Part shown: positions 38,035 to 47,723 of the stretch, piece after piece | Layout: the number at the start of each line of letters is the position of its first letter | Position numbering within the stretch: position 1 is the first letter of the stretch | Source: Nitrospinaceae bacterium | Lineage (GTDB): Bacteria > Nitrospinota > Nitrospinia > Nitrospinales > VA-1 | Assembly: GCA_021604505.1 (NCBI GenBank) | Contig: BQJC01000002.1 | Location: forward strand, 310,001-374,000 | Direction of reading: 5' to 3' | Length of the DNA: 64,000 nt | Position numbers and translations under genes: made by a program | Notes under the pieces: model-generated | Told to the model about the DNA's origin: nothing | The model's input: the letters and a program-made list of their open reading frames with translations, nothing else | Databases searched by the model: none

Positions 38035-39231
38035 CTAAATCGCGTCGCCCAACTTGAATATGGGCAAATACATTGCCACAACAATGAAACCGACAACGAT
38101 ACCCAGAAAAACCATCAACATAGGTTCCAACAACGAAGTCAGAGCGGCGACAGCGTTATCGACTTCCTCGTCATAAAAGTCGGCGACTTTGTGACACATA
38201 CTGTCCAACGATCCTGAGTTTTCACCAACGTCGATCATTTGAATCACCATTGGGGGGAAAATACTTTCCCGGGCAAGCGGGCCGGCGATGTTTTCCCCGC
38301 CTTTGATCGCTTCAATGGTTCTAAATACCGCGCGCTCCACGATTTTATTTCCAGAGGTACGCGCACAAATCTCCAGTCCCTCAATCAAAGGAACGCCGCT
38401 GGCAATCAACGTACCGAGGGTCCGGGTGAATTTGGCAACGGAGACCTTTTGAATCAGGACTCCGACAACGGGAATCTGCAATAACAATTTATCAATTTCA
38501 AAACGACCCCGTTCGGTGGAATAAATCTTTCGAATGAGAAAAATCAACGCCGCAATACCACCAAAAAGGTAATACCATTTAGTGCGAAAAAAATCACTCA
38601 CCATCATGACGATCTTTGTGGGTCCAGGCAACTCCCCTCCTCCTCCAGCAAATAAACCGGCAAAGGCGGGAATAACAAAAATCATCAAAAAGGCCACCAC
38701 ACCCACCGCAACGGTGATGATGACGCCGGGGTACACCATCGCCGACTTTACCTTTTTCTTAAGAGACTCGGACTTTTCAATATAATCGGCCAGACGTTTC
38801 AAAATAACGTCGAGAATACCGCCCACTTCTCCTGCTTCCACCAGGTTACAATACAGGTTGTCAAAGGTTTTTGGGTGCTTGCGCATCGAATCGGAAAGGT
38901 CGCTCCCCTTTTCAATATTCGCCTTGACCTGGAGAATGATTTCTCCAAAAGTTTTATTTTCAGATTGCCTGCCCAAAATGTCCAAACATTGCACGAGGGG
39001 AAGACCTGCATCGACCATGGTGGAAAACTGGCGGGTAAAAACAACGATATCCCGTCCGGTAATTTTTTTCTTTTTGGGGCCAAAAAATTCTGAGGCTCCC
39101 TTTTTTTTGATCGAATTGATCCGAATTTTCTGGAGCTTCAATTTGGCGATAGCGGACTTTTCGTCGTCCGCATCCACCTCGCCTGTTCTAATCTGCCCCC
39201 TCACCCTGGCTTTATACGTAAATGTTGGCAC
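38035..39231 (-). CDS. pilC: Type IV pilus inner-membrane platform protein PilC
   Basis: 398 residues, PilC/GspF family. The N-terminus has PTFTYKARVRGQIRTGEVDA with the FTYKAxxxxG motif. Two repeats of the GspF domain are seen: FTRQFSTMVDAGLPLVQCLD followed by ILGRQ, and FTRTLGTLIASGVPLIEGLE. The repeats end in hydrophobic helices (VAFLMIFVIPAFAGLF and LEPMLMVFLGIVVGFIVVAM). PilC assembles the pilus platform and interacts with the PilB and PilT ATPases. Its neighbours on the same strand are two pilT genes and a PilS-like kinase. Confidence 0.95.
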   Translation of the reverse strand: MPTFTYKARVRGQIRTGEVDADDEKSAIAKLKLQKIRINSIKKKGASEFFGPKKKKITGRDIVVFTRQFSTMVDAGLPLVQCLDILGRQSENKTFGEIILQVKANIEKGSDLSDSMRKHPKTFDNLYCNLVEAGEVGGILDVILKRLADYIEKSESLKKKVKSAMVYPGVIITVAVGVVAFLMIFVIPAFAGLFAGGGGELPGPTKIVMMVSDFFRTKWYYLFGGIAALIFLIRKIYSTERGRFEIDKLLLQIPVVGVLIQKVSVAKFTRTLGTLIASGVPLIEGLEICARTSGNKIVERAVFRTIEAIKGGENIAGPLARESIFPPMVIQMIDVGENSGSLDSMCHKVADFYDEEVDNAVAALTSLLEPMLMVFLGIVVGFIVVAMYLPIFKLGDAI

Positions 39232-39255
39232 TGGTTATCCTTTTCTAATCCCGCT

Positions 39256-39666
39256 TTAAACAGGTTTGAGATTTTTTCGCGCGTTTTCCAATTCCGATCC
39301 AACTTTGGTTAACATTTCCGTGGTTCTACGAAGCTTCTGCACCAGGCCATTGACGATGGCCCGTAAATCCTCAGGCAGTGTTTCCAGGACCTGGTCAAAC
39401 TTTTCCTTATCAATAAACCCAACTTCCACATCTCCCCGGGCAGACACAGTAGCGCTGCGCACGCCGCTTACAATCAATCCCATTTCTCCAAACACGTCCC
39501 CTTCCTTAAGGGTACCGAGCACTAGAGTTTTTCTATCGATTTTCTTGGTGATACGCACCTCACCTTTCAAAATCACATAAGCGTTATTGCTGATAATTCC
39601 TTCGGAGATAATCACTTCGCCGTCAGAAAAACGCTGGACAATGGAGGTCTCTGTTAACAAGTTCAT
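39256..39666 (-). CDS. Cyclic-nucleotide-binding domain protein
   Basis: 136 residues, essentially one cNMP-binding beta-roll: RFSDGEVIISEGIISNNAYV, LGTLKEGDVFGEMGLIVSGV then RSATVSARGDVEVGFI. The phosphate-binding cassette (FGEMGL...RSATV) is present. There is no effector domain attached, so it must act through partners. It sits between pilC and the zinc-ribbon protein; its start overlaps the stop of the zinc-ribbon gene (ATGA-type). A regulatory link between a cyclic nucleotide and pilus function is inferred from context. A second stand-alone cNMP domain lies at 51721. Confidence 0.88.
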   Translation of the reverse strand: MNLLTETSIVQRFSDGEVIISEGIISNNAYVILKGEVRITKKIDRKTLVLGTLKEGDVFGEMGLIVSGVRSATVSARGDVEVGFIDKEKFDQVLETLPEDLRAIVNGLVQKLRRTTEMLTKVGSELENARKNLKPV

Positions 39667-40352
39667 GTTTTCCCCATAGCGTGCAATGACTCTTTGTACA
39701 CCTTATAAAAAGTTTCGTGCTCTGTGAGCGATTTCTTCAGAATCTGCGGCAGTTTTTCCTTGTCTTTAGCGTTGATTACCAGATTGACGCTGAATGCAAA
39801 CGCTTCCATATTGTTCAAGGTTTTGAATTTATCGCCCAGCAGCACAAAGAAAATATTCCTTCGGGTCGTCATGGGCATTTCCGCAAGGGTGCGGTACACT
39901 GGGTTTTTTTCAAACGGGACGCCGCCATAGTTTTCGTTCAGAACCACAAAGTGAAAATGAGTGAACCTCATCTTATGAATCGCGTGCTCGGGGGATTTGG
40001 CATATTGTATCTTGAACCCCCTTTCTTCCAAGGCATCCACCCACAGGTCTTTATTGACATCATCCAGTAGCAATGCCAGCCGGTCGTTCTCGTCATAGAT
40101 CTGTAATTCTTCGTCGTCGTCAAAATCGGCGGAAATAATAATTCCCAAAGAATTTTCCGAATCTTCGACGGCCTCAGTCTCTTCCGTAACGGTTACTGGT
40201 TCCTGAGGCTCAGCATCCTGAGCGGAAAGATGCTGGTCCACCCGCACCTTCGCCCGGCACCCAGGGCAGGTTATGGAAAAGACTCTTCCCTGGGGGATTT
40301 TATCTTCAGGAATATTTATTCCCTGTTCACACGCGGCGCATTTAATTTGCAT
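39663..40352 (-). CDS. Zinc-ribbon/receiver-like protein
   Basis: 229 residues. The N-terminus MQIKCAACEQGINIPEDKIP then SITCPGCRAKVRV is a CxxC...CxxC zinc ribbon of the MJ0042 type. An acidic linker follows, then a domain of about 130 residues with receiver-like order (LALLLDDVNKDLWVDALEER-GF, HFHFVVLNENYGGVPFEKNP) but without a clear phospho-accepting aspartate set. It overlaps the following cNMP gene by four bases and lies 80 bases after a pilT gene. In related bacteria such genes accompany pilus motors; the function is unknown. Confidence 0.75.
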   Translation of the reverse strand: MQIKCAACEQGINIPEDKIPQGRVFSITCPGCRAKVRVDQHLSAQDAEPQEPVTVTEETEAVEDSENSLGIIISADFDDDEELQIYDENDRLALLLDDVNKDLWVDALEERGFKIQYAKSPEHAIHKMRFTHFHFVVLNENYGGVPFEKNPVYRTLAEMPMTTRRNIFFVLLGDKFKTLNNMEAFAFSVNLVINAKDKEKLPQILKKSLTEHETFYKVYKESLHAMGKT

Positions 40353-40432
40353 CCTGTTTCCTCATAAAAATTCGGTGCGGATGAAAAAATTCGACTTTGA
40401 AAACCGCATTATTTTTACGCACCCTTGTAACA

Positions 40433-41602
40433 TCATTTGAGTTGCGTTTCGTAATCTTCATCCATAGCCAATTCGTCGATATCCGTGGTTTTTTCGCCCT
40501 TGGAAGCCCTGAAGGCATCGATTCCCCTTGCCACGACGCTTTTTCGGGAAGCATAGGCCATCGCCGTTTCTTCAGTGATCTGCCCTTCCTTAAACAACTT
40601 CAAAATATGTTGATCAAACGTCCACATTCCATAAGGTTCGCCGTTCGAAATGATTTCATAAAAGGTTTTCCCCTCAGACTCACCATTGATGATCGCATCT
40701 TTGACCCTGAGGCTGGTGGAAAGAATTTCAAGGAGGGCAATCCTTCCGCCTCCCACCTTGGGCAACAGCCTTTGACAGATGATCCAGCGAACGGTTTCCG
40801 CCAAACGGATACGGATCTGCTGTTCTTCCTCTTTGGAAAACATGCCGATGATGCGGTTGATGGTTTGGCCTGCATCTACGGTGTGCAAGGTGCTCATGAC
40901 CAGGTGGCCAGTTTCAGCGGCGCTCATTCCAATCTCGACCGTTTCCCGGTCGCGCATTTCACCCACCAGAATCACTTTCGGCGCCTGCCGAAGAGCCGCC
41001 CGCAATCCGCTGGAAAACGCATCGTAATCGCTTCCCAGTTCCCGCTGGTTGAACGTCGCCTTTTTATGCGGGTGCACAAATTCCACGGGATCTTCAAGGG
41101 TGATGATATGAATGGATTTTTCGTCATTGATCTTGTTTAAAAGTGCGGCAAGAGTGGTCGACTTACCACTGCCGGTGGCTCCCGTGACCAGAATCAATCC
41201 GTTTTTTTCATCCGCGGCCTTGCCAAATTGCGGCGGAAGTTTCAAGTCCTCAAGGGATGGGATACGGGTTTCAAGTTTTCGAAGGACGGTGCTGTAATTA
41301 CCGCGCTGGGAAAATATATTGACCCTGAAACGAACTTTCCCGACTAAAAAATAGGAGCAGTCGCAGGAACCTTCCCGAATGAGGGTTTCGGTCAACCTGC
41401 GATCGGAGTTGACCAGGTTGAGCGCAAAAATTTCCGCCTGAAACGGCGTTATTTTGGGAATCGCCGGCTCCAACGAAACCTGGGTCAATTGTCCGGAAGA
41501 TTCCACCTGAAAGGATTTCCCGGCAGTGACGTTGAGGTCGGAAATATTGCCTTGAGACTCCAGCATGGTGGTCAGGATATGATCAGTTTCGGCTTTTCTC
41601 AT
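40433..41602 (-). CDS. PilT/PilU-family pilus retraction ATPase
   Basis: 389 residues, PilT family. Walker A is VTGATGSGKSTTLAALLNKI, the Asp box is IHIITLEDPVEFVHPHKKAT, Walker B is VILVGEMRDRETVEIGMSAA, and the His box follows at TGHLVMSTLHTVDA. A hexameric cytoplasmic ATPase that pulls pili back. Compared with the neighbour at 41615 it is more diverged at the N-terminus (SDLNVTAGKSFQVESSGQLT) and has a longer C-terminus, resembling the accessory PilU-type motor. The two genes are 12 bases apart, so they are co-transcribed. Confidence 0.9.
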   Translation of the reverse strand: MRKAETDHILTTMLESQGNISDLNVTAGKSFQVESSGQLTQVSLEPAIPKITPFQAEIFALNLVNSDRRLTETLIREGSCDCSYFLVGKVRFRVNIFSQRGNYSTVLRKLETRIPSLEDLKLPPQFGKAADEKNGLILVTGATGSGKSTTLAALLNKINDEKSIHIITLEDPVEFVHPHKKATFNQRELGSDYDAFSSGLRAALRQAPKVILVGEMRDRETVEIGMSAAETGHLVMSTLHTVDAGQTINRIIGMFSKEEEQQIRIRLAETVRWIICQRLLPKVGGGRIALLEILSTSLRVKDAIINGESEGKTFYEIISNGEPYGMWTFDQHILKLFKEGQITEETAMAYASRKSVVARGIDAFRASKGEKTTDIDELAMDEDYETQLK

Positions 41603-41614
41603 GGGGGTTCTCGG

Positions 41615-42688
41615 CTAAATAAATTCCGGTGGTTTTTTCAGATACTGAATGAATCGATCTTTAACAATGGCTTTTTCAAATGCATCGTCGGCGCTGATCT
41701 TTTTGTTATTTAATGAATCCAGAATGGCATCGTCCAAAGACTGCATGCCGAATTTTTTCCCCGTTTGAATCGCGGAGGGAATTTGGAACGTTTTTCCTTC
41801 GCGAATCAAATTCGACACAGCGGGAGTCACCACCAACACTTCAAGAACCGCGATCCGGCCTTTCTTGTCGATTCGCTTGAACAGGTTCTGAGCCACCACG
41901 CCTTTAAGGGTCTCTGAAAGAGTCGTGCGGATTTGCGCCTGCTGATGGGCCGGGAACACATCAATGACACGATCAATGGTTTTAGCAGCACTTTGCGTGT
42001 GCAAGGTGCCAAACACCAGATGTCCGGTGGAGGCGGCTTCCAGCGCCAGCTCGATGGTTTCCAGATCGCGCATTTCGCCCACAAGAATGATATCCGGGTC
42101 TTCCCTGAGCGCGCCTCGAAGAGCCGATTTAAAACCCTGGGTATGAATTCCCACTTCACGATGATTGATGATGCAGTTTTTGTTCTTGTGAACAAACTCA
42201 ACGGGATCTTCAATGGTGATGATATGGTTTTTTCTATTCCTGTTGATGAAATCAATCATGGCCGCAAGAGTCGTCGATTTACCACTTCCCGTTGGCCCCG
42301 TGACCAGCACCATTCCCTTGTGCAGCATGGAGAGTTTGGAAATGACCGAAGGCAGACCCAATTGTTCCGCTGTCAGGATTTCACTCGGAATCTCGCGGAA
42401 TACGGCGCCGATTCCCCATTTCTGCTGAAAATAGTTTGCCCTGTAGCGGGCCAGATTGGGTATTTCATACGCAAAGTCGATATCGCCGGTTTCTTCAAAA
42501 ACCTTGATCTTGTTCTCCGGAGCGATTTCATACAAGATGCTTTTCAGTTCGTCATTTTCAAGCTCTTTATACTTGACTCGCTCCATATCACCGTGAACCC
42601 GAAGAACGGGTTGTGACCCGGCGACCAGATGGAGATCAGAAGCACCCTGCTCATTCATCAATTTAAAAAAAGCGTCTATTTTTGCCAC
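41615..42688 (-). CDS. pilT: Twitching motility ATPase PilT
   Basis: 357 residues, the normal PilT length. The N-terminus ASDLHLVAGSQPVLRVHGDM is typical of PilT. Walker A is VTGPTGSGKSTTLAAMIDFI, then HIITIEDPVEFVHKNKNCI, Walker B DIILVGEMRDLETIELALEA and His box TGHLVFGTLHTQSAAKTIDR. PilT depolymerises type IV pili and so drives twitching and DNA uptake. The gene follows a RodZ-like gene by a few bases and precedes the second motor gene. Confidence 0.96.
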   Translation of the reverse strand: MAKIDAFFKLMNEQGASDLHLVAGSQPVLRVHGDMERVKYKELENDELKSILYEIAPENKIKVFEETGDIDFAYEIPNLARYRANYFQQKWGIGAVFREIPSEILTAEQLGLPSVISKLSMLHKGMVLVTGPTGSGKSTTLAAMIDFINRNRKNHIITIEDPVEFVHKNKNCIINHREVGIHTQGFKSALRGALREDPDIILVGEMRDLETIELALEAASTGHLVFGTLHTQSAAKTIDRVIDVFPAHQQAQIRTTLSETLKGVVAQNLFKRIDKKGRIAVLEVLVVTPAVSNLIREGKTFQIPSAIQTGKKFGMQSLDDAILDSLNNKKISADDAFEKAIVKDRFIQYLKKPPEFI

Positions 42689-42691
42689 GGT

Positions 42692-43816
42692 TCACTCGAT
42701 GAGTTTGGCTGTTATATCAAAATCTCTAATCACATCATTGGTACCGGAAGGAAGGTCTATTGACTTTCCATTTAAAAAAAGATGGGTCCCCCGCCGGTTA
42801 CCGATGGTGACTCTAAACTTCTCATTTCCAAAAATATTTTTACTCGACCCGCCTGGGAGAATAAAGTCCTCTTCTCCGCCATCATCAACTGTCACGTTGA
42901 ACCAGGAATTGCCCTGGACCTGAATCATTAAATGCAGGGGTTTGGAATCCGCTTCAGGAGGCTTAAAATCTTTTTCGACCTGCTTTTCGGCCTCTCCCGA
43001 GTTTTCCGCAACATGTTGAATTATAACAGGTTTTTCTTTTCTTTCGACAAATTTTTCCGTTTCCGCCGGTTTTATCGGGGTTTTCGGTTCTTTCTCCTTT
43101 TCCTCCAGGGGGCTGGAGGGCCGCGCTTTCGGGCTAAGATTTTCGGCAACGGCCTCAGATTTTTCTTCCTCCGGTACCGCAATCGGGGTAGCGTTTTTAG
43201 GGGCTGGAGGGTTACTGACAGCGGCATCCTCTTTTATATTTGCATCGACGGCAGGAGAAGAGGATAGATCTGGAAGTGAATCCGCTTTCATCACCTGCCC
43301 GGAATTTTCTTCCAGTGTTTCACTGGCTTCCTTTTCTTGAGTGGGCTCTATCTTCGTCAGGTTTTCTGCATTGTTGCTCTGCAAAAAAGAATCGCCTGTG
43401 GAAACCGTTTCCCCCTGGATCCTTTGCCCGCTGTCAATCATAGAGCGCACCCCGACATACCCAAGGAAAATCACGCCCAATAAGGCCATTCCTCCAACCA
43501 CGTATCCAGCGACGGTTTTTTTTCTGGACCGGATTTTTTCATTCTCCGCGCGGACTTTTTCGAATTCTTCCATTCGGTCTTTTCCCACCGTGCCGTCATA
43601 AGCGTTGACCATCTCTTCAGAGTCAAAACCCAGCACCTTGGCATAGGCCCGAATATACCCTTTAATGAAAACTTCCCCTGGCAGAAGGTCAAACTCATTA
43701 TTTTCGAGCGCCTCGAGAAAGCGGATATGAATCTTCGTCGCCTCCGCAATTTCCTCCAGGGAGACCCCTCGAAGCTCACGCTCATGCTTTAAATACAAAC
43801 CAAAATTCTCAACCAT
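42692..43816 (-). CDS. RodZ-like helix-turn-helix membrane protein
   Basis: 374 residues. The start VENFGLYLKHERELRGVSLE then EIAEATKIHIRFLEALENNE is a Cro/C1-type HTH, followed by a single helix (VAGYVVGGMALLGVIFLGYV at about 110-130), a Pro/Glu/Lys-rich region, and a C-terminal beta domain (LMIQVQGNSWFNVTVDDGGE, FLNGKSIDLPSGTNDV) of the DUF4115 type. This is the plan of RodZ, which links MreB to the envelope. The ATG at 43816 starts the HTH properly. It lies between the PilF-like lipoprotein and pilT, so a function with pili as well as shape is possible. Confidence 0.87.
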   Translation of the reverse strand: MVENFGLYLKHERELRGVSLEEIAEATKIHIRFLEALENNEFDLLPGEVFIKGYIRAYAKVLGFDSEEMVNAYDGTVGKDRMEEFEKVRAENEKIRSRKKTVAGYVVGGMALLGVIFLGYVGVRSMIDSGQRIQGETVSTGDSFLQSNNAENLTKIEPTQEKEASETLEENSGQVMKADSLPDLSSSPAVDANIKEDAAVSNPPAPKNATPIAVPEEEKSEAVAENLSPKARPSSPLEEKEKEPKTPIKPAETEKFVERKEKPVIIQHVAENSGEAEKQVEKDFKPPEADSKPLHLMIQVQGNSWFNVTVDDGGEEDFILPGGSSKNIFGNEKFRVTIGNRRGTHLFLNGKSIDLPSGTNDVIRDFDITAKLIE

Positions 43817-43823
43817 AATTCCT

Positions 43824-44612
43824 TTAATTGGGCTGTTGGATAAGATCCAAATATTTCCTGGAAATGCGGGCCCACTCACTTTTGGGGGCCAGGCGGATGA
43901 CTTTTTTGAAGTGCTCTACGGCTTGATCCATCTGCTTGTTGAGGATCAAAAGTTGGGATATTTCATAATGAGCTTGTGGAAATTCTGGGTTCAGAAGGAC
44001 CGCTTTCTTTAAGGACTGCAACGCCTGGTCGAACCGTTCCTGATCCTTGTAGGCCAGTGCGAGATTGAGACGGATGGCCGCATTATCTTTTAATGCGATT
44101 GCTTTTTGCCATTCGCGTTCAGCATCCTCATATTTTTTCTGGTTGTAGTAGCTCAACGCCAACCAGTTGTAAACTCGATGCGGTTGAGGTGTCGGAGGTC
44201 TGAGCAAATCTTCCTTGAAATTCATTACCGCGAGATTCCATTCCCCTTTGCGCATATACAGCCGGCCTAATTGGCGGAAGGCGTCCTTGGAGTCCTTATT
44301 AATTTCCAAAGTTTTTTTAAATTCTTTTTCTGCATTGATCAAATCCCCGGTAAGGAAATAAGCCATACCCAAATGCAGGCGGAACTGCTCATCTTTGGGG
44401 TCTAGCTCCACAGCCTCCTGAAACCGGGTGATCATCCCTTTCTGATCCTTTATGGACCCTAATTCCAATCCCTCTTGAAATTTAGCCCGGGCTTTGGCGC
44501 GATCGGAGGCTGGATCGCTGGCGCACCCTCCAAAATATCCCAGAAACAATAAATTTATTAAAATTAACAACCAACCCTTTCCATATGCGGAATTCACCCT
44601 GGGCTCACTCAT
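43824..44612 (-). CDS. TPR lipoprotein, PilF/PilW-like
   Basis: 262 residues. The N-terminus has a lipobox (LGYFGGC-AS) after the hydrophobic ILINLLFLGYF, so it is a lipoprotein. Five or six TPR units follow: AKFQEGLELGSIKDQKGMIT, LHLGMAYFLTGDLINAEKEF, AFRQLGRLYMRKGEWNLAVM, RVYNWLALSYYNQKKYEDAE and AHYEISQLLILNKQMDQAVE. PilF/PilW pilotins that help PilQ secretin assembly have this layout. It is the first gene of the rodZ-pilT-pilT run, with a seven-base gap to rodZ. The pilotin role is inferred from the neighbours. Confidence 0.8.
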   Translation of the reverse strand: MSEPRVNSAYGKGWLLILINLLFLGYFGGCASDPASDRAKARAKFQEGLELGSIKDQKGMITRFQEAVELDPKDEQFRLHLGMAYFLTGDLINAEKEFKKTLEINKDSKDAFRQLGRLYMRKGEWNLAVMNFKEDLLRPPTPQPHRVYNWLALSYYNQKKYEDAEREWQKAIALKDNAAIRLNLALAYKDQERFDQALQSLKKAVLLNPEFPQAHYEISQLLILNKQMDQAVEHFKKVIRLAPKSEWARISRKYLDLIQQPN

Positions 44613-45151: not shown

Positions 45152-45745
45152 ATGAAAATCAAGCTAATTACGCGATTTTCCCAAGTAGCCGCTCTTCTGG
45201 TTGTACTGGCGGTCTCAGCGGGAAATGCTTTTGCTATAGAAAATCAATCACGTGTCGTTTCACCTTATTGGCAATCAGACAGCACTTCTTATTCGTTTAT
45301 TGCAGTAACTCATCCCTCGCTGTCCGGTATGAGATCGCAAATCGGGGTGACCATCAATGCCATCCAGAAAGATCAATCGGCATTCGGTACGGCGACCTCG
45401 TTCACCGTCTCTGCGGGCAGTACTCAGCGGGTGTTTATTGTCAGAACGAATCAGTCCACCATCAATGCAACGAGCATTCCCACTGCCCAATTCATTGTTG
45501 GATCGACCGCTTTCCAGCATGGGCATGTCCGCGTTGATCCAGTGGCAACCACTCCGGGATTCAGAACCGGTGAAAATGTTGGAGCTGGTTTTCGTGATGT
45601 AACCATGCTTTCTTACTGGGGAGCGGTAGTCATCGAAACCAACACCACCGGATTCGCCATGGAGTTCATTGGCGATGCGCATGACAGTGCTGCCACGTCT
45701 GGCAACACGACTGGAAGAGGGGTGAGTGGTGTGGGTGCTCCGTAA
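45152..45745 (+). CDS. Secreted protein of unrecognised family, paralogue A
   Basis: 197 residues. A signal peptide (FSQVAALLVVLAVSAGNAFA) is followed by a beta-rich, Ser/Thr/Asn-rich domain. It shares with its neighbour at 45807 an ordered set of motifs: SYSFIAVTHPSLSGM, SFTVSAGSTQRVFIV, HGHVRVDP, MLSYWGAVVIETNTTG and the almost invariant GFAMEFIGDAHDS near the C-terminus. No known domain is recognised. There are no cysteines in the mature part. The start ATG has ggag a few bases upstream. The pair ends at a strong terminator, so they form a two-gene unit. A structural or surface role is possible but not shown. Confidence 0.7.
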   Translation: MKIKLITRFSQVAALLVVLAVSAGNAFAIENQSRVVSPYWQSDSTSYSFIAVTHPSLSGMRSQIGVTINAIQKDQSAFGTATSFTVSAGSTQRVFIVRTNQSTINATSIPTAQFIVGSTAFQHGHVRVDPVATTPGFRTGENVGAGFRDVTMLSYWGAVVIETNTTGFAMEFIGDAHDSAATSGNTTGRGVSGVGAP

Positions 45746-45806
45746 CAGTGACAATGAGTCCACGAATAAGAATCAGCCAATTAGACATAGACAAGGAGAA
45801 CGACTG

Positions 45807-46460
45807 ATGAAAAAATTTTTCATAGCAAGCATACTCATCCTGATGGGGTTTGTGGTCGCGACTACAACCGCTCAGGCTCAAATATTATCGGCGCCGACAA
45901 CCACCGATAGCGCCCGTGTTGCCATTTCGCCATATGCCCAAACTGTCCCAAGTGATAGTTACACTTTTATAGGTATCAGCCATCCGTCATTAGACACGGC
46001 GCTGACGCAGGTTGGGGTGGTCTTAGAGGTTTTAGGCATGACCACCGTCCCCAATGACGCGTCTGGACGATCGGTGACTTTTACCGTTGACGCTGGTGAA
46101 ACGCATCGGATTTTTATCGTCGACCAGGGTAATGCATCTATTAATTCTCTGAACTCGGCATTCACAGATTCCCGGACCCATCTCATCACTGCGGTGAATT
46201 CTGCACAGTTTGGTAACGTGAGGGTGGTCGGAATCAATGAGGCGCCGGGAGTCGCGACAACCGTGGGATCGACAGCAAAATATGACAACGTCTCCCAGCT
46301 CAATATGTGGGGCGTGGTATTTATTCCGTCCAGTGGAACCGGGTTTGCCATGGAGTTCATCGGCGACGCGCATGATTCCACCATCGGACCTGCATCTAAC
46401 GGTTTAGCGCCCGTGGGAGGTACGAGAAGCTTTACTGGTGCCGGCCGTGGCATCAACTAA
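45807..46460 (+). CDS. Secreted protein of unrecognised family, paralogue B
   Basis: 217 residues. Signal peptide KKFFIASILILMGFVVATTT-AQA, then the same domain as paralogue A: SYTFIGISHPSLDTALTQVG, VTFTVDAGETHRIFIVDQGN, QFGNVRVVG, LNMWGVVFIPSSGTG and GFAMEFIGDAHDS. It has a somewhat longer C-terminal tail rich in Gly. The ATG at 45807 is chosen because aaggagaa lies seven bases before it. It is 61 bases after paralogue A and followed by a strong terminator. The high identity of the last block, against a more variable middle, suggests this block is functional. The family is unknown. Confidence 0.72.
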   Translation: MKKFFIASILILMGFVVATTTAQAQILSAPTTTDSARVAISPYAQTVPSDSYTFIGISHPSLDTALTQVGVVLEVLGMTTVPNDASGRSVTFTVDAGETHRIFIVDQGNASINSLNSAFTDSRTHLITAVNSAQFGNVRVVGINEAPGVATTVGSTAKYDNVSQLNMWGVVFIPSSGTGFAMEFIGDAHDSTIGPASNGLAPVGGTRSFTGAGRGIN

Positions 46461-46484
46461 CCGCTTGTGATATTATCCCCTCCA

Positions 46485-46516
46485 GGGGCCAACCGTCCCG
46501 GTTGGCCCCTTTTTTT
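46485..46516 (+). terminator. Terminator after the secreted paralogue pair
   Basis: Eleven-base perfect stem ggggccaaccg/cggttggcccc with a three-base loop and seven T after it. Confidence 0.95.
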
Positions 46517-46540: not shown

Positions 46541-47386
46541 ATGAAATACCTTTTTCCCACGTCAGTAATATTTATTTTTCTTTTTGCCTGCACCTCAGGA
46601 GAGGTAACCATTGACACCGCAGAATCCGAGTCTCATTACAATTTGGGATTGGAATTTGCCAAACTATCCCTTTACAAAAACTCTCTCGAAGAGTTCGACC
46701 TGGCATTAAAAAGCAACCCCAACAATTTAAAAGCGTACCGAAAAAAAGGCCTGGTGCATTTCGGGCTCAAGCAACACGACCAGGCGAAAGACGCATTTGA
46801 AAAAATCCTGTCCCAGGATCCGAAAAACGTTCAGGTTCATATCAATTTGGGGATGGTGTTCTACGCCCAAGGGGAAACGCAGAAAGCTCAAAAACAATGG
46901 GAACATGCCATCTCAATCCAGGATGGGGATAACGACTCCAAAGCCTTCAATAATATTGCCAATATCTACAAGGAAGAAAAAAAATACGATAAAGCCATCG
47001 AATATTATCAGCAAGCCATCGCACAGGAGCCCAACAACTCCACCTACCTCAACAATCTTGGGGACAGTTTCCGCCTTCAGGGTCAATTTGCCCGTGCGGA
47101 AAAAACCCTTCAAAAATCGCTCAAAATAGATGCGAATGGAATGCTCACTCATTTTAACCTGGGCATGCTTTACCAGGAGCAAAAGAGTTTCGACAAAGCG
47201 GTTGAGGCGTTCCAAAACTCTGTAAAAGTCAATCCCTACTACGCCGAGGCGTACTACCAGATGGCTCTAACCTACTTTGAGAAAAAAGATAAAGAATCCG
47301 CTTTGCAATCCCTGGAGTTTGCTTTAAAAACAGAACCCTCCAACTCAAAATACCAACAACTATTTTCTAAAGTAGAAGCTTCCTGA
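46541..47386 (+). CDS. TPR lipoprotein
   Basis: 281 residues from the ATG at 46541. A lipobox (FIFLFAC-TS) follows the signal region. Six or seven TPR units cover the rest: ESHYNLGLEFAKLSLYKNSL, LKAYRKKGLVHFGLKQHDQA, VHINLGMVFYAQGETQKAQK, NNIANIYKEEKKYDKAIEYY, YLNNLGDSFRLQGQFARAEK, HFNLGMLYQEQKSFDKAVEA and YYQMALTYFEKKDKESALQS. It is likely a scaffold at the envelope; no enzyme domain is present. A short fragment of a TPR protein follows immediately. Confidence 0.85.
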   Translation: MKYLFPTSVIFIFLFACTSGEVTIDTAESESHYNLGLEFAKLSLYKNSLEEFDLALKSNPNNLKAYRKKGLVHFGLKQHDQAKDAFEKILSQDPKNVQVHINLGMVFYAQGETQKAQKQWEHAISIQDGDNDSKAFNNIANIYKEEKKYDKAIEYYQQAIAQEPNNSTYLNNLGDSFRLQGQFARAEKTLQKSLKIDANGMLTHFNLGMLYQEQKSFDKAVEAFQNSVKVNPYYAEAYYQMALTYFEKKDKESALQSLEFALKTEPSNSKYQQLFSKVEAS

Positions 47387-47393
47387 AAATAAA

Positions 47394-47723
47394 TTGCCCC
47401 TTAAAAGCGGCTGCGATCCATCCCGGCAACCCTGCGGTTTTTGCGGACGGACCGCCGTTTATTTTTCCTTGGATCGAAACGAGGATTCGGTCAAAACCCT
47501 TGAAACGATTTTGACCGTCGAGGTAAACCACGCCGATGCCCACTTCGCCTTGGGAGCGGCCTATGACAAAATCGGACAGGGCGAAAAAGCAATGGGCCAC
47601 ACCCGGTCCGCGGAAAATCTATTCACTAAAGAGAACAACTCGTTTATGATGGCTCAAGCTGCGAAAAACTTAAGTCATTTTATGAGAAAATTCCGGCCCC
47701 TTGTCAATGGAGATTCCGAATGA
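47394..47723 (+). CDS. Small protein with C-terminal TPR-like helices, possibly a gene remnant
   Basis: 109 residues if the start at 47394 is used. The first 25 residues are Cys/Arg-rich and do not look like protein of any family. From about residue 30 it reads DSVKTLETILTVEVNHADAH then FALGAAYDKIGQGEKAMGHT, a good TPR pair with a tail. The frame starts eight bases after the preceding TPR gene. It is either a truncated remnant of that gene family (5' part decayed) or a real small TPR protein with a later start. No ribosome site was found for the listed start. Confidence 0.4.
   Translation: MPLKSGCDPSRQPCGFCGRTAVYFSLDRNEDSVKTLETILTVEVNHADAHFALGAAYDKIGQGEKAMGHTRSAENLFTKENNSFMMAQAAKNLSHFMRKFRPLVNGDSE

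Follow-up and report, generated by a model that had tools for sequence, protein, structure and literature searches.

Two tandem genes, A and B, in the analysed window (a 64,000-nucleotide stretch of a Nitrospinaceae genome) encode predicted secreted proteins made up of a single domain that is undescribed, specific to Nitrospinota and without a known family by sequence or by fold. In related genomes the same domain closes dozens of large exported proteins, which makes it a probable tag or joint for attaching proteins to the cell surface. Together with the gene of a TPR lipoprotein at 46541-47386, A and B make up a co-inherited module. Our leading reading, held with roughly even confidence, is that of a Nitrospinota C-terminal sorting or surface-assembly domain with A and B as its domain-only subunits.

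The gene pair and its shared domain

The first-pass annotation had described two tandem paralogues with signal peptides in an unrecognised family. Indeed, A and B, each with its own ribosome-binding site, share 40% identity over 158 aa (BLASTP, E 3e-31), and their signal peptides are plausible (Lys-rich start, then a hydrophobic stretch, with predicted ends at AFA/IE in A and AQA/Q in B; see Table 1). The start of B is the ATG at 45807, with AGGAG upstream; the mechanically derived open reading frame start at 45726 lies too early. The almost identical block that was thought to end both proteins proved to be exact and slightly longer (14 residues, TGFAMEFIGDAHDS) and is not the protein end, as tails of 18 residues in A and 26 residues in B follow it. 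The strong terminator said to close a two-gene unit is present; the co-inherited TPR lipoprotein gene just beyond it had been overlooked. Values of dN/dS among congeners (0.10-0.14 for A, 0.10-0.20 for B) indicate purifying selection on both genes and, together with phylum-wide conservation, rule out chance similarity or spurious open reading frames; a mobile element was likewise rejected, given a syntenic site and no plasmid or phage match.

Table 1. Features of the A/B locus and of the flanking TPR lipoprotein genes (positions in the window; a slash marks the predicted end of a signal peptide).
Feature	Position	Strand	Remarks
Flanking TPR lipoprotein paralogue	43824..44612	-	conserved type IV pilus flank, outside the module; kept where A/B are missing
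Gene A, domain-only secreted protein (predicted)	45152..45745	+	197 aa
A, predicted signal peptide, residues 1-28, ...NAFA/IEN	45152..45235	+	sequence reading and heuristic hydrophobic-core test
A, conserved all-beta domain, residues 34-179	45251..45688	+	invariant alignment columns; TGFAMEFIGDAHDS at its end (45647-45688)
A, C-terminal tail, ...SGVGAP end	45689..45742	+	atypical; SGVN end in most relatives
Gene B, domain-only secreted protein (predicted)	45807..46460	+	217 aa
B, predicted signal peptide, residues 1-24, TAQA/Q	45807..45878	+	sequence reading and AlphaFold2 helix 2-21
B, conserved all-beta domain, residues 37-191	45915..46379	+	alignment and AlphaFold2; TGFAMEFIGDAHDS at its end (46338-46379)
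B, variable low-confidence tail with conserved terminal motif RGIN-COOH	46380..46457	+	pLDDT <50 for residues 188-217; motif statistics
Intrinsic terminator 3' of B	46484..46510	+	12-bp stem, 9 GC pairs, T run
TPR lipoprotein, PilF/PilW/Tgl-like	46541..47386	+	281 aa; lipobox LFAC; gained/lost together with A/B

The domain comprises about 165 aa and is followed by a tail of 12-35 residues with the usual end G-[VIL]-N-COOH. AlphaFold2 (39-40 alignment rows) predicted an all-beta core with pLDDT mostly at 85-95 and, in both models, a tail below 50. Among the invariant residues (B numbering) are Y43, Q45, Y52, F54, H59, S61, L62, G70, T93, R101, F103, G136, L165, W168, G169, G179, F180, M182, E183, F184, G186, D187, S191 and G215. 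The family remains unrecognised: the domain had no match in Pfam at E≤10, noise-level matches only in NCBIfam, none in PDB searches by sequence and with a 39-row profile, and none at E≤0.001 in a Foldseek comparison with the PDB. The best Foldseek matches, all non-significant, were regions of beta-agarase (beta-sandwich) and viral jelly-rolls (E 0.01-0.06), with CBM22 also among the weak top matches. Searches of papers on the proteomes, S-layers and secretion of Nitrospina turned up no mention of these proteins.

Fused proteins and the terminal motif

According to a genome search, the window genome carries the domain in A and B only, both of them domain-only proteins. In other genomes many matches lie in long open frames, which in one sister family (G039) extend to 5370 aa. 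The domain forms the extreme C-terminus of all 63 distinct large fused proteins, with 0-2 residues beyond the HMM envelope, and none of them contains an N-terminal or internal copy; each has one domain copy and no repeat array, although these giants often contain Ig-like repeats. A hydrophobic N-terminal stretch is present in 53 of 58 fused proteins, and a simple test for a hydrophobic core at the N-terminus was positive for 76 of 78 domain-only relatives. The cargo is mutually unrelated: among 41 fused proteins scanned, 14 contained reprolysin M12B, six DUF7948 with an SBBP propeller, four subtilase S8 and two GSDH, the others including FG-GAP, Calx-beta, NHL and HYR; the giant proteins carry FG-GAP, Calx-beta, BACON, DUF5650 and He_PIG. 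About 43 domain-bearing fused proteins, many longer than 1500 aa and with arrays of FG-GAP, Calx-beta, BACON and DUF5650, were counted in G039 (L049, L050, L089-L115).

The end G-[VILTM]-N-COOH was found in 59 of 62 complete fused proteins versus none of 312 background ORFs. Their last five positions read [FV]-S-G-[VIL]-N (the commonest letter accounting for 54-97% at each position); the tail residues ahead of them vary, and tail length has peaks at 12 and 16. A tail that is poorly ordered in the AlphaFold2 models and yet conserved in its last residues fits a linear recognition motif. Since some domain-only A proteins, that of the window included, lack G-x-N (ends VGAP, PAAP, NLQ), the motif is not strictly required. 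Single A-like proteins with the aberrant ends ...ARAMK and ...ARAVK were observed at L144 (4839-5486) and L145 (127-837) in genomes without a B partner and without the TPR gene; this A-like form is possibly degenerate or reassigned.

Distribution and the co-inherited TPR lipoprotein gene

The first-pass annotation had also considered that homologues might be absent outside the strain. This is not the case: a search for relatives recovered the domain in 40 of 77 Nitrospinota genomes and in none of the roughly 310 genomes that the sample contained from other phyla. In a contig collection of about 85,000 species, patterns derived from B alone retrieved only Nitrospinota MAGs and one small contig labelled Alphaproteobacteria; the latter (L045, 3.5 kb) holds an A-B pair close to that of Nitrospinaceae genus g7 and is probably mis-binned. 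B-type proteins occur across families of the order, and in paired loci A lies just upstream of B. In the tree, the B-type copies form one supported clade with two fused proteins inside, one of which proved to be FG-GAP; the other fused domains lie nearly all on the A side, mixed with stand-alone A proteins, with several changes of state.

Next to A and B, the window contains a syntenic type IV pilus cluster (38038-44612: PilC-like, two PilT/PilU ATPases, RodZ-like, PilF/PilW-like TPR lipoprotein). The arrangement with PilT, RodZ and the flanking TPR paralogue on one side and A-B-TPR lipoprotein on the other is syntenic from the genus of the window through further families of its order (L048, L052, L053, L065); at L063 only A-B-TPR is kept, and at L062 the TPR gene accompanies an A-type gene in the absence of B. 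Four genomes that lack the domain (L138-L141) retain intact flanks at the corresponding site (PilT, RodZ, upstream TPR, radical SAM, U32) but have none of the three genes for A, B and the TPR lipoprotein downstream of them. The TPR gene is present in 32 of 40 domain-bearing versus 3 of 37 other Nitrospinota genomes (Fisher p 8e-11, a value that ignores relatedness); in one of these three (G008) it lies at a contig edge. Even in the most distant carrier (G056) one domain protein adjoins the TPR gene. The best NCBIfam match of the TPR lipoprotein is TIGR02521 (119.7 bits, below the curated cut-off of 154); Tgl and PrsT were also matched. A small ORF between this gene and a pentapeptide protein (47394-47723) has no Pfam match and the look of a TPR remnant.

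Other genera have a second A-B pair without a TPR neighbour; a domain-bearing reprolysin either comes after this pair or lies opposite to it. Such a pair with its adjacent reprolysin was seen at L035, L036, L038, L040, L043 and L047, beside genes that by eye are DUF542/RIC-like and NifU-like. In G030 and G036 (92-94% complete), A, B and the fused reprolysin are present and the TPR gene has no match at 1e-40. As these genomes possess the second form of the pair only, the TPR gene is not universal, and is thus either not essential or replaced. The first-pass annotation had captured the two paralogues and had missed both the membership of the TPR gene and the role of their shared part as a C-terminal domain on other exported proteins.

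Known sorting systems and the role of the domain

The C-terminal domains (CTDs) of the type IX secretion system (T9SS) of Bacteroidota resemble the Nitrospinota domain in the combination of a signal peptide with a beta-rich C-terminal domain, in unrelated cargo and in many copies per genome. They are about half as long, and, in contrast to them, the Nitrospinota domain ends in G-x-N and also exists as domain-only proteins. The known CTD models (Por_Secre_tail/TIGR04183 type) were not matched in Pfam (E≤10) or, above noise, in NCBIfam. SprA (PF14349) occurs in none of the Nitrospinota genomes, the same search having detected it in 56 genomes of other phyla as a positive control, and the PorU-type peptidase C25 (PF01364) in none of the 40 domain-bearing genomes, being confined to G058 and G059, which both lack the domain. 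With SprA and the C25 sortase absent, T9SS is ruled out for the domain-bearing genomes.

The PEP-CTERM/exosortase system likewise combines a C-terminal homology domain with diverse signal-peptide proteins and a variable copy number, and the PEP-CTERM profile includes a TPR protein, PrsT (PMC1569441). Unlike PEP-CTERM, the Nitrospinota tails lack the PEP motif, the transmembrane helix and the basic end, and the domain is a folded unit of about 165 aa. This system was ruled out by the tail sequences and because 37 of the 40 domain-bearing genomes lack exosortase (present in three). Autotransporters (type V) have a C-terminal outer-membrane beta-barrel with an aromatic end residue; the Nitrospinota domain ends in N, not F/W, and its AlphaFold2 fold may be a barrel or a sandwich. 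The TPR lipoprotein resembles PilF/PilW/Tgl and has a paralogue in the adjacent pilus cluster; it differs in scoring below the cut-off and in being gained and lost with A and B, not with the pilus genes. A and B resemble S-layer or fibre subunits in being small, predicted to be secreted, domain-only and paired, but have neither homology nor a match to a known S-layer or fibre fold. The T2SS secretin GspD is encoded in nearly all genomes, domain-bearing or not, so that T2SS is a possible but unspecific route across the outer membrane; no domain-specific translocon or sortase was identified.

Sorting domains of the PEP-CTERM type were first recognised by their terminal position, by a conserved end after a variable linker, by diverse exported cargo and by variable copy number (PMC1569441). 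The domain described here bears the same marks and may, by this analogy, be filed as a C-terminal sorting domain. From sequence and predicted structure we infer surface location, processing, recognition of the terminal motif, co-assembly and a role for the TPR protein, with the following mechanism: Domain-bearing proteins would be exported by Sec via the N-terminal signal peptide, after which the C-terminal domain would carry them across the outer membrane or fix them to its surface; the cargo-free A and B would most likely be constitutive subunits of a surface assembly, to which cargo-bearing domains, mostly of the A type, could be added, and the PilF/Tgl-like TPR lipoprotein would most likely act as outer-membrane assembly factor for A and B. 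The conserved function such as surface assembly that the first-pass annotation had suggested is plausible and gains strength from the fused proteins.

As no cargo protein exists in the window genome, sorting can be at most part of the function in that genome, and the retention of stand-alone A and B where there is no cargo argues that the domain also does something alone. We prefer a surface scaffold; in a close rival reading the domain would serve self-assembly (polymerisation) and not be a signal for secretion or sorting, with A and B building a surface sheet or filament into which fused copies, exported by T2SS, would co-polymerise as decorated subunits. Cargo-free, domain-only A and B, two ancient paralogues whose fixed order suggests hetero-assembly, the T2SS secretin and a conserved tail end that could serve as donated strand would all suit such a polymer, whereas the single domain copy per fused protein and the failure to match a known fibre or S-layer fold do not, and we regard it as possible though unlikely. 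Still less likely is a C-terminal ligand-binding, carbohydrate-binding-like accessory module, A and B then being small secreted lectin-like proteins: the predicted all-beta, jelly-roll-like fold, the weak Foldseek matches to beta-agarase beta-sandwich regions and CBM22 and the many hydrolases among the cargo are consistent with it, but those matches are non-significant, protease-only and propeller-only proteins have no substrate in common, and strict terminal placement with a conserved G-x-N is unexpected for a CBM. An ordinary lineage-specific secreted family whose gene end was fused repeatedly by recombination, without a sorting role, would explain the intermingling of A-type with fused copies in the tree and the several state changes; it is very improbable, because selection keeps the domain at the protein end and preserves its last residues across a wide range of cargo, and chance would also have yielded N-terminal or internal copies. 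A divergent T9SS CTD, despite the common logic, is scarcely credible, being already contradicted by the missing translocon and C25 sortase and the unmatched CTD models.

Returning to the sorting and surface-assembly reading, the domain is a candidate for a new protein-sorting route outside the T9SS of Bacteroidota and PEP-CTERM. We tentatively go further, with somewhat less than even confidence, and propose that an outer-membrane system for sorting and surface assembly, peculiar to the Nitrospinota and separate from T9SS and exosortase, uses the G-[VIL]-N-COOH domain, A and B and the TPR partner to display proteases and giant adhesins. The main nitrite oxidisers of the ocean belong to the Nitrospinaceae, and a literature search found no account of how they dress or use their cell surface. 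As the domain marks exported proteases, adhesin-like giants and sugar dehydrogenases, it would provide a direct listing of the surface proteome, and up to about 43 cargo proteins in G039 would at once gain a predicted location. If the proposal is true, environmentally dominant nitrite oxidisers and their relatives display proteases and giant adhesins by a system of their own.
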